Part shown: positions 34,719-61,009 of the stretch, in pieces
Layout: every line of letters begins with the position of its first letter
How positions within the stretch are numbered: position 1 is the stretch's first letter
From: Roseibium suaedae
GTDB lineage: Bacteria; Pseudomonadota; Alphaproteobacteria; Rhizobiales; Stappiaceae
DNA length: 64,000 nucleotides
Reading direction: 5' to 3'
NCBI RefSeq assembly: GCF_900142725.1
Contig: NZ_FRBW01000002.1
Coordinates: 248,001 to 312,000, forward strand
Position numbers and translations under genes: made by a program
The notes under the pieces: generated by a model
Database searches by the model: none
What the model was told of the DNA's origin: nothing
The model's input: only the letters and a program-made list of their open reading frames with translations

Positions 34719-35306
34719 GTGCTGGACCGCTTCTATCTCATCATCGACAGCCCTGAATGGCTGGACCGCCTTTGCCCTGAGGGTCTACGACTTGCCCAAT
34801 TGCGGATCAAGGAGCCGGACGAGACCCTCCCCGACCTTGTGAGTCGTACCCTGCGAACTGCCCGAAAATATGGCTGCACCCTGGTGATCAACGATCACTG
34901 GCAGGCAGCCATAGATGCCGGAGCAGACTGGCTGCATCTGGGCCAGGAAGACCTGGACACTGCCGACATCAAGGCCATCCGCAAGGCAGGACTGAAGCTT
35001 GGCCTTTCAACCCACACGCCGGAAGAGCTGGACCGGGCCCTCACCTTTGATCCGGACTACGTGGCCCTTGGCCCGATCTTTCCCGCCCGTGGCAAGGTGG
35101 TGGACTATGCCCCGCAAGGCATTGCCCGCCTTTCCAGCTGGAAGGCCCGCATCAACGTGCCGCTGATCGCGATCGGGGGCATCCGCATCGAGCATGCTGA
35201 AAGCCTGTTTGAGGCAGGTGCGGACAGCATTTGCGTCATCACCGATGTGCTGGCCGATGCGGACCCGGAAGCCCGCTGCCGCGCCTGGATTGCCGCAAGC
35301 CGGTAA
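34719..35306 (+). CDS. thiE: Thiamine phosphate synthase
   Basis: The 195-residue TIM-barrel enzyme joins HMP-PP and thiazole phosphate to thiamine phosphate. Visible motifs: QLRIKEPD for the pyrimidine pyrophosphate pocket, LVINDHWQAAIDAGADWLHLG, GLSTHTPEEL, YVALGPIFPARGK and IAIGGI. Translation starts at GTG 34719, set by the AGGGAG 5-8 bases upstream; a start further upstream would run into the ydcF-like gene. No other thi gene lies near and no TPP riboswitch precedes it. Its stop codon TAA is the first part of a repeat end shared with the MITE at folB. Confidence 0.87.
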   Translation: MLDRFYLIIDSPEWLDRLCPEGLRLAQLRIKEPDETLPDLVSRTLRTARKYGCTLVINDHWQAAIDAGADWLHLGQEDLDTADIKAIRKAGLKLGLSTHTPEELDRALTFDPDYVALGPIFPARGKVVDYAPQGIARLSSWKARINVPLIAIGGIRIEHAESLFEAGADSICVITDVLADADPEARCRAWIAASR

Positions 35307-35327
35307 TACCAACCTCAAGAAATAGCG
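35304..35327. repeat. Solo end of the MITE-like element at the thiE stop
   Basis: The 24 bases from TAATACCAACCTCAAGAAAT onward are identical to the right terminal repeat of the 267-bp element at 60022-60288. They include the thiE stop codon. The match ends after AGCG, and no opposite end lies nearby. Confidence 0.8.
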
Positions 35328-35429
35328 GCGGGATCAGGGGAAGCTCCAGTTCGTGATGCCCGTCACAGTTCCCCTCGTCAAAACCGACCATGAATTGCTT
35401 CACAGGTTTCCAAGAGGTGGAGCAAGATC

Positions 35430-54373: not shown

Positions 54374-54448
54374 TGTCCGGTTCTCCAGCATGTTCCGGGA
54401 CAATGACCTGCGCATCCGCGAGCCCTGAAAGGACGCGAATGACAGGCT

Positions 54449-54590
54449 GTTCTCTTTTATCCGGACTGTAACCGTCGGCTCCGGCATCTCACCGGATCTG
54501 CTGACCCTTGCCGCTTGAGGGACAAGGCGCTCGCGGGCTCCGGGTTACCCCGATACCGCCGGTGGGGAATTGCACCCCGCCCCGAGAACA
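54449..54590 (-). promoter_or_regulatory. FMN riboswitch (RFN element)
   Basis: The minus strand contains the RFN core: GGGGTGCAATTCCCCACC with CCGGCGGTA, AGCCCGCGAGCG, GTCAGCAGATCCGGTGAGA, CCGGAGCCGACGG and CAGTCCGGAT followed by AAAGAGAACA. Order and spacing match FMN-binding aptamers that shut off riboflavin genes when FMN is high. It ends about 75 bases before the ribN start, room for a ribosome-site-masking stem. Confidence 0.95.
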
Positions 54591-54612
54591 TTTCAGTAAT
54601 GCTGAAGGATGT

Positions 54613-59658: not shown

Positions 59659-60024
59659 ATGGACGCAATACACCTGAAGGACCTGGCGTTCTTCGCTTAT
59701 CACGGCCTCTACGAGGAAGAAGCGCGCCTGGGGCAACGCTTCCTGGTGGACCTGACTTGCTGGCTGGACCTGTCAGCTGCCTGCGAGAGCGACGAGTACG
59801 ATCAGACCGTCTGTTATGCCGGGCTGGTCAAATCCGTCGAACAGGCCGTCACCGGCACCCGCTTCAATCTGATCGAGCGGCTGGCCGCCGAGATCGTGAA
59901 AGCGGTCTTCAACACGGATGAACGCATCCAGAAGGTCCGGGTGAAGGTCGAAAAGCCCGGCGCCCCCCTTCCCGTTCCCTCCGGCACGGCAAGCGTCGAG
60001 ATCATGCGCAACCGGCCGGGCTAA
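59659..60024 (+). CDS. folB: Dihydroneopterin aldolase
   Basis: The 121-residue FolB forms 6-hydroxymethyl-dihydropterin for folate synthesis. Visible: HLKDLAFFAYHGLYEEEARLGQRF with conserved Tyr and Glu, the SVEQAVTGTRFNLIERLAAEI helix and the catalytic Lys in VKVEKPGAPLP. Folate partners folP and folK are not next to it. Its stop codon TAA is the first three bases of the MITE-like element that follows. Confidence 0.94.
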   Translation: MDAIHLKDLAFFAYHGLYEEEARLGQRFLVDLTCWLDLSAACESDEYDQTVCYAGLVKSVEQAVTGTRFNLIERLAAEIVKAVFNTDERIQKVRVKVEKPGAPLPVPSGTASVEIMRNRPG

Positions 60025-60288
60025 TACCAACCTCAAGAAATAACGACCTATTTGATGGCCTCAGCCGGGTTCCCGGCTAGGCACGGTGCGCCGCCCGATG
60101 CCGGGCATCGGGCAAGCAGCGTAACGACGTCCGGGGAGCCGGAAGTGGCCACCGGAGGCCGCGTTTTCGAACCGCCCGGGCTACGTCGCGTTCCTTGGAA
60201 GATGCACCGCATCTCCCTGCGAAACGCTTCTTGCCGGACAATCCGAAAACGCGGTCAAATAGGTCGCTATTTCTTGAGGTTGGTATTA
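60022..60288. mobile_element. MITE-like element with 34-bp terminal inverted repeats
   Basis: The first 34 bases (TAATACCAACCTCAAGAAAT...) and the last 34 are inverted copies with one mismatch. Total length is 267 bases with no coding capacity. The outer bases are TA, as in elements mobilised by Tc1/mariner-IS630 type enzymes that duplicate TA, and the first three bases supply the folB stop codon. A lone end with the same 24 bases occurs at the thiE stop (35304). Confidence 0.85.
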
Positions 60289-60408
60289 CCTGACCATTGC
60301 CCTTCGGCTGGCGGGCAGAAGCCGGTATCCTCCCTCATCTGGCAAAACAGGGCGCGAGCGCCTATCTTGAATGGATGGGGGAATTGTCCGGATTGCGGAG
60401 CACCGATC

Positions 60409-60744
60409 ATGACTTCGATATCGACAAGACGCTGGCCTGCCCGTCACCTGAAGCGCGGAACCACTGCCTTGCTGGTTCTTGCCAGCATCGCCAGCCCGGC
60501 CCTCGCCCGGCCTGACCTCAGCAAGATGACCTGCGCAGCCGCCCAGCAAATGGTCCAGCGCAACGGCAAGGTGGTCTTCACCACCAGCCCGACGACCTAT
60601 GCGCTGTTTGTGTCCAACCGCAGCTACTGTGACCGCTGGGAAGACATCTACCCCCAATATGCCCGCACGAAGGACACGCCGAATTGCCCGGTGGCCTACA
60701 AGTGCCAGGAGCCATTGTTCCGGCGGAGCCTCTGGGAGCGGTAG
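60409..60744 (+). CDS. Small exported cysteine-containing protein
   Basis: The 111-residue protein has a signal sequence (LKRGTTALLVLASIASPALA) and a mature domain with four cysteines C42, C74, C93 and C99. Its pattern MTCAAAQQMVQRNGKVVFTT and RSYCDRWED, CPVAYKC is found in small conserved exported proteins of Hyphomicrobiales. Start ATG 60409 follows GGAG at 8 bases. Function unknown. Confidence 0.82.
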   Translation: MTSISTRRWPARHLKRGTTALLVLASIASPALARPDLSKMTCAAAQQMVQRNGKVVFTTSPTTYALFVSNRSYCDRWEDIYPQYARTKDTPNCPVAYKCQEPLFRRSLWER

Positions 60745-60813: not shown

Positions 60814-60941
60814 GTCATCCCGGCCAAGCAACGCGCGAGCCGGGACCGGTGAGCCTAAAAGCTATCGGCTTCAAAGAATGGAATGCCGAGAGACCTAGGC
60901 TCACCGGTCCCGCATCTTCGCTTCGCTGCGTGCGGGATGAC
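60814..60941. repeat. 128-bp paired palindrome, family 1, copy C
   Basis: It starts GTCATCCCGGCCAAGCAACG and ends in GCTGCGTGCGGGATGAC, with GGACCGGTGAGCC and its inverse near the two ends. It lies between the small exported protein gene and the converging pccB. Confidence 0.88.
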
Positions 60942-61009
60942 AATTGGATGGGTTCGTCATCAATCTCAGGGCAGCCCTGAGATTGAGATAGACCAGTTTC
61001 CCCATCCGC

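Follow-up and report, generated by a model that had tools for sequence, protein, structure and literature searches.

A TNA-duplicating MITE, apparently of IS630 type, at the folB stop codon of Roseibium suaedae

RUP of Streptococcus pneumoniae is a 107-bp element that is ascribed to IS630-Spn1 and inserts at TA, according to the available part of its description (PMC2229807). The MITE that we describe here from Roseibium suaedae resembles RUP, as far as that account goes, in that both are short and gene-less with inverted repeats, and for RUP, too, similar ends suggest movement in trans by an IS630-family transposase. In contrast to RUP, which inserts at TA, the Roseibium MITE duplicates TNA, is 261 bp long and lives in a host in which no IS630 was found. 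The insertion sequences ISY100 and IS630 insert at TA and duplicate it in the portion available (PMC2170065); the presumed partner of our MITE is likewise of the IS630 family (NCBIfam, Pfam) and has inverted ends around a single transposase, but the Roseibium group duplicates TNA. In the wider IS630-Tc1-mariner group, TAA, TAAA and TATA duplications are described elsewhere, and the pogo-type Fot (TAA) and Sailor (TATA) share with our element a duplication longer than TA; however, Fot is a member of the pogo superfamily of eukaryotes, the Sailor duplication is TATA, and a TNA with a variable middle base is not described in the available parts of these accounts (PMC7386202, PMC8533490). The Correia/NEMIS and ERIC elements are likewise MITEs of bacteria that lie near genes and fold into strong hairpins, but the excerpt at hand describes TA ends and neither TNA duplication nor stop-codon placement, a distinction drawn from description and not from sequence (PMC2229807). 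PMC7471000 was rejected as a precedent, as "TNA" occurs in its available text as the first letters of names such as TnAs1. In the titles and abstract beginnings of the open-access literature, we found no report of a TNA-duplicating IS630 group or of this MITE, although such a group may already be catalogued in ISfinder. The Roseibium MITE thus looks like an IS630-type MITE with TNA instead of TA duplications, which is its new aspect.

Roseibium is a marine bacterium, and folB is a vitamin gene. The window, which is the whole stretch of 64,000 nucleotides of R. suaedae DNA that was analysed, contains a real MITE at the end of folB, which the initial annotation had correctly noticed (Table 1). 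As it had claimed, positions 60022-60055 matched the reverse complement of 60255-60288 over 34 bases with one mismatch, and no open reading frame (ORF) of at least 60 amino acids lies within the MITE; a mechanical ORF at 60052-60744 begins inside the element and continues downstream of it. The inverted repeat extends inward to form 114-nt arms with 70% complementarity. The 20-base end had three exact matches in the window, compared with 0 expected in shuffles, and these were the two ends of the folB MITE and a single end at 35304. Upon comparison of 64 copies, the flanking repeats were found to lie outside a core that begins with TACC and ends with GGTA, and the outer TAA and TTA at folB are therefore target rather than element. 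The inverted repeat was thus as proposed, whereas the proposed extent of 267 bases shrinks by three bases at each end, to a mobile unit of 261 bp with 31-bp ends. The identity of the element as a MITE was borne out by its further copies, empty sites, target duplications and an IS with similar ends. Elsewhere in the window, a further palindromic stretch at about 60816-60945 (CGTCATCCCGGCC ... CGGGATGACA), seen by eye, looks like a second intergenic repeat. An FMN riboswitch (54445-54593) and an EcpR1-type sRNA (2875-2986) were also present on the minus strand (Rfam, above gathering scores).

Table 1. Features of the folB MITE and its surroundings, in window coordinates.
Feature	Position or sequence	Strand	Basis
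MITE proper, 261 bp	60025..60285		boundaries by comparison of 64 copies and their flanking TNA repeats; R. litorale site empty
Left terminal inverted repeat, 31 bp	60025..60055	+	one mismatch to the right end
Right terminal inverted repeat, 31 bp	60255..60285	-	pairs with the left end
Left target-site triplet TAA, now folB stop codon	60022..60024	+	TNA here in all 42 exact-repeat copies; TGA as folB stop in relatives
Right target-site triplet TTA, one base off the left triplet	60286..60288	+	aligns with TCA of R. litorale
TGA equivalent to the R. litorale folB stop, now past the MITE	60291..60293	+	junction alignment; folB ends
folB, dihydroneopterin aldolase, 121 aa	59659..60024	+	Pfam PF02152 (FolB), 128.2 bits
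Single left MITE end, about 22 bases, right limit approximate	35307..35328	+	directly after the thiE stop TAA (35304-35306)
End sequence by which a Roseibium IS would match the MITE ends	TACCAACCTCAAGAAATAGCG

The copies were drawn from 68 loci (8 from the host and 60 stretches from relatives), of which L204, L205, L207 and L208 were dropped as one end could not be placed, leaving 64; nearly all loci were hand-picked for having both ends, and shortened or decayed copies are therefore under-represented. Exact 3-bp direct repeats were found at 42 of the 64 copies, while the repeats differed by one base at 16 and by more at 6. All 42 exact repeats were TNA (TAA 17, TTA 17, TGA 5, TCA 3). The target context was palindromic, GNC-TWA-GNC, with G enriched at -3 and C at -1, and correspondingly on the other side. 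Dispersed copies with target duplications, by which bacterial MITEs are recognised, were thus found, whereas the insertion at TA and TA duplication of classical IS630/Tc1/mariner elements were replaced by duplication of TNA.

In the host genome (5.14 Mb, 14 contigs, completeness 99.96), we found six full copies with 96-100% identity and two internally deleted copies of 158 and 125 bp. An 18-base end pattern with up to 2 mismatches revealed 20 host ends, 16 from these eight two-ended copies and four single ones, against 0 for the reversed pattern. Full copies, which the initial annotation had proposed to look for, thus occur in the host, and there are more in relatives. When the 36 remaining genomes of the genus were searched, 22 had DNA matches to the MITE (E 0.001 or better); in 12 of these the match spanned 210 or more of the 267 bases, and in the others it was shorter. 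Among 24 genomes of other families, two from the same order (G045 and G060) gave matches, to inner parts only and without the Roseibium ends. A degenerate end pattern was present in 25 of the 45 genus genomes including the host, compared with 3 matches in total for a control pattern; 25 is an upper figure, because in at least G001 and G027 the sole match sits in one conserved unrelated coding sequence. The exact 21-base end was absent from a scan of genome contigs, and the MITE had no match in plasmid or phage collections. Some copies were unusual in form. L202 (genome G010, C7:47881-47938) is a 58-bp copy that consists almost entirely of two ends placed back to back, and L192, L193 and L194 (genome G068) are longer copies of 425-528 bp with further inserts inside them, which have inverted repeats and CTAG or similar borders and are apparently different small elements nested in the MITE. 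At the single MITE end L032 (G000:C6:475752), a predicted opposite-strand gene extends 23 bases into the end and would owe its stop and final bases to it.

The host is close to R. litorale, whose folB is the nearest named one (97%) and which serves here as the sister species. The joined flanks of seven host copies were searched in the R. litorale genome, and the folB site was compared as the eighth. Six of the seven matched across the junction and the seventh (L003) gave no flank match; the MITE was absent at seven of the eight two-ended host sites, folB included. Clean junctions with a single TNA were found for L005 (TAA), L004 (TTA) and L018 (TAA, the native stop of a gene), and the R. litorale folB junction was TCA; L002, L006 and L024 were also empty, but with diverged flanks. 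The initial annotation had named presence at the same locus in distant relatives as evidence against transposition; in R. litorale the folB site is empty. Additionally, the R. litorale orthologue of thiE (host thiE: TMP-TENI, 150.9 bits, Pfam) has the TAA stop but not the single MITE end; the end behind the host gene therefore looks like a remnant after loss of the rest.

At folB itself, matches were found in eleven other genomes of the genus, and the gene end was readable in seven of them (all except L110, L112, L113 and L114). The stop codon was TGA in all seven, and three (R. litorale, G036 and G014) end with NRPGIT. The host protein ends with NRPG followed by TAA, while the relatives stop two codons later with TGA. 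As the relatives' stops are all TGA, the stop now used by the host arose at the insertion junction. The right flank TTACCTGACC aligned with TCACCTGACC of R. litorale, which places the old stop beyond the MITE, and the left flank was one base shorter than in R. litorale. The claim that the leading TAA of the element terminates folB therefore held in effect, since a new TAA was made at the junction, but not in detail, as this TAA lies in the target triplet. Likewise, the comparison proposed for an empty site with a target duplication revealed the empty site in R. litorale, but the flanks in the host are unequal (TAA/TTA). Because of these unequal flanks and the one-base shift, the history of the insertion was reconstructed and not read off directly. 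The target was probably TCA/TTA just upstream of the old TGA, and a one-base register change at the junction would have given the present TAA, with folB losing its last two residues.

IS ends of the type TACCAAGCGCAATTGATCAGAACC, found via the degenerate end pattern, led to an IS in Roseibium relatives. Its right-hand ORF matched NCBIfam NF033545 (IS630) with 142.7 bits (cut-off 100) and Pfam DDE_3 (PF13358) with 88.7 bits, and the partner transposase thus belongs to IS630; the left-hand ORF reached 39.8 bits to NCBIfam IS630, which is under the cut-off. Seven copies with both ends placed were 1,152-1,164 bp long with TACCAA ends, and resembled the MITE in their ends and TNA repeats. The flanks were TTA/TTA in five of the seven and TTT/TTA and TTA/TCA in the other two, and a 610-bp derivative (L124) was flanked by TCA/TAG. 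A transposase fragment found matches in 13 of the 45 genus genomes. The host had no match to this fragment and none to NF033545 (40 of 46 candidates scored), and since no such transposase was found there, the MITE looks stranded in this genome. The transposase also matched 262 plasmid records at E 1e-30. Six of ten plasmid-borne IS630 loci had TACC ends and identical TNA triplets (TAA, TTA, TTA, TAA, TTA, TCA) at lengths of 1,159-1,168 bp, as determined by an end search that gave a bonus for a 3-bp repeat, that left the other four without resolved ends and in which the TACC pair of one of the six (L248) ranked third behind two other pairs. These six loci were from Novosphingobium (two), Sphingobium, Methylobacterium, Azospirillum and Microvirga. 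The transposase of Roseibium L087 lies in two frames, and the CDS lengths given in the gene table for several plasmid relatives (L248-L253, L255 and L256) are not divisible by three, which suggests programmed frameshifting.

Comparison of the ends gave a graded result. The MITE ends of relatives matched IS ends in at most 23 of 27 positions (maximum 20 in 200 shuffle rounds) and, without the first six bases, in 17 of 21 (shuffle maximum 16); part of this match is built in, because MITE ends had supplied the pattern with which the first IS copies were found. Among pairs whose IS end was not found in this way, the best (L203/L120) matched in 22 of 27 positions, and its 16 of 21 without the first six equalled the shuffle maximum. 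The host's own MITE ends matched IS ends in 17-19 of 27 positions, which is inside the shuffle range and not significant alone. An IS with similar ends, which the initial annotation had proposed to look for, was found in the relatives. Similarity between MITE and IS was confined to the ends, and the inner part of the MITE does not recognisably derive from the IS.

To place the insertions relative to genes, genes were called by codon usage trained on the window, and TNA triplets within 700 bases served as controls. Of the 64 insertions, 21 were located exactly on a predicted stop codon, 38 elsewhere in intergenic DNA and 5 in genes, while the 3,297 control triplets comprised 63 stop, 1,069 intergenic and 2,165 genic sites. 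Genic insertions were thus strongly depleted (p about 1e-21), and this under-representation is best read as selection. One strand of TNA reads TAA or TGA. A gene that is hit exactly at its stop codon therefore remains intact, since duplication of the triplet provides the stop anew, and insertions of this kind accumulate through the target motif and purifying selection. Of the suggested target preference that leaves essential genes intact, the preference was recovered as a TNA target in GNC-TWA-GNC, with few insertions inside genes, but there was no sign that essential genes in particular were spared.

Taken together, it is highly probable that the element is a non-autonomous MITE of an IS630-related group that inserts at and duplicates TNA and was moved in trans by a transposase since lost from the host. 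Judged by comparison of its copies, the MITE inserts at TNA, mostly TWA in GNC-TWA-GNC, and duplicates the triplet. From the sequences we infer that IS630-family transposases with the same end type and TNA duplications would have moved it in trans, and the host would have lost its IS630-type transposase later. TNA duplications are a signature of some IS5 groups, and an IS5-type driver was for this reason the first idea; it is now very improbable, as PF01609 (DDE_Tnp_1) had no match in the host and IS630-family elements in relatives and other alphaproteobacteria carry TACC ends and TNA repeats. That the inverted repeat arose by chance, or is an intergenic repeat that is fixed and does not move, has a negligible probability: nothing beyond the lack of a transposase in the host speaks for it, whereas the many copies at unrelated sites and the target duplications speak against it and the empty sites contradict it. 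A separate matter is whether the transposase actively targets gene 3' ends, stop codons or transcription-end regions beyond the local motif. Stop codons held 21 of the 59 non-genic insertions but 63 of 1,132 controls (odds ratio 9.4, p about 3e-11), and this share of 36% exceeded the 22% expected from a motif derived from 21 non-stop insertions (p=0.013; exact repeats 19/40, p=0.0004). Additionally, 6 insertions were located 1-15 bases downstream of a stop, compared with 29 controls. However, a motif from all exact-repeat sites, which is conservative because stop sites are included in it, raised the expectation to 27% (p=0.08 over all sites, p=0.004 for exact repeats alone). The excess was weak among sites with the core STWAS (9 stop and 15 other, controls 12 and 58, p=0.04) and absent with CTWAG (2 and 5, controls 4 and 9). 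Among sites close to gene ends (within 60 bases), stop codons were not over-represented (21 of 34 against 72% expected), and a stricter gene threshold lowered the stop count to 18 of 64, with 41 intergenic and 5 genic. Insertions were frequent between convergent genes (21, compared with 43 of the TWA controls), as would be expected from selection against hitting promoters. We therefore consider active targeting unlikely. The excess of insertions at stop codons relative to other non-genic TNA comes largely from the fit of stop codons to the target motif, which explains much of the placement, and selection may explain the rest.

We also considered whether selection retains the MITE because its folded form has a function, as a transcript 3'-end hairpin, terminator, mRNA stabiliser or DNA cruciform. 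The fold energies of the two strands were far better than those of shuffles (z -10.4 and -16.2), and the right end contains a terminator-like site at 60251-60267 (2 sites in a 900-base stretch, 0.6 expected). For pairing analysis, 35 copies (34 distinct) were chosen from 53 orientable full-length ones. In the 83-pair structure, 97.0% of cells were paired and 40 pairs showed compensated changes, far above the controls (mean 28 in shuffles, 6-11 when slid), although the slid versions are at a disadvantage, as the same alignment had yielded the structure, and relatedness of the sequences can by itself, without selection, raise compensated pairs above the shuffles. When only pairs shared by the structures of the two strands were counted, there were about as many G-U cells (34) as A-C cells (33), and thus no RNA strand was favoured. 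The orientation beside genes was not significantly biased (19 to 11, p=0.2), and the compared copies are absent from the orthologous sites of R. litorale. Arm-to-arm copying of imperfect palindromes by template switching would also yield paired changes, and the host copy L006 (G000:C7:517051-517317) carries the identical substitution at paired positions of both arms, as such copying would give. A retained folded-form function is thus doubtful, and a DNA-level structure or arm-to-arm copying fits the paired changes.

The reading of the element as an IS630-related MITE may be extended, though only tentatively and with the odds against the whole, to an alphaproteobacterial IS630-related system whose TNA duplication would make stop codons reusable landing sites. 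In such a system, target choice, beyond selection, would steer insertions to gene ends, the duplicated triplet would restore the stop, and the MITEs would keep a whole-length hairpin by paired changes at the DNA level; if this were true, the system would have an inherent means of entering dense genomes harmlessly. The results also suggest that several alphaproteobacterial genera carry an IS630-related group that duplicates TNA in place of TA, a point relevant to target choice and cutting by IS630/Tc1/mariner enzymes. The defined target of the MITE family makes insertion at stop codons testable by a transposition assay. A three-base target that is a stop codon on one strand, and that is duplicated upon insertion, is a simple route to harmlessness in a gene-dense genome.
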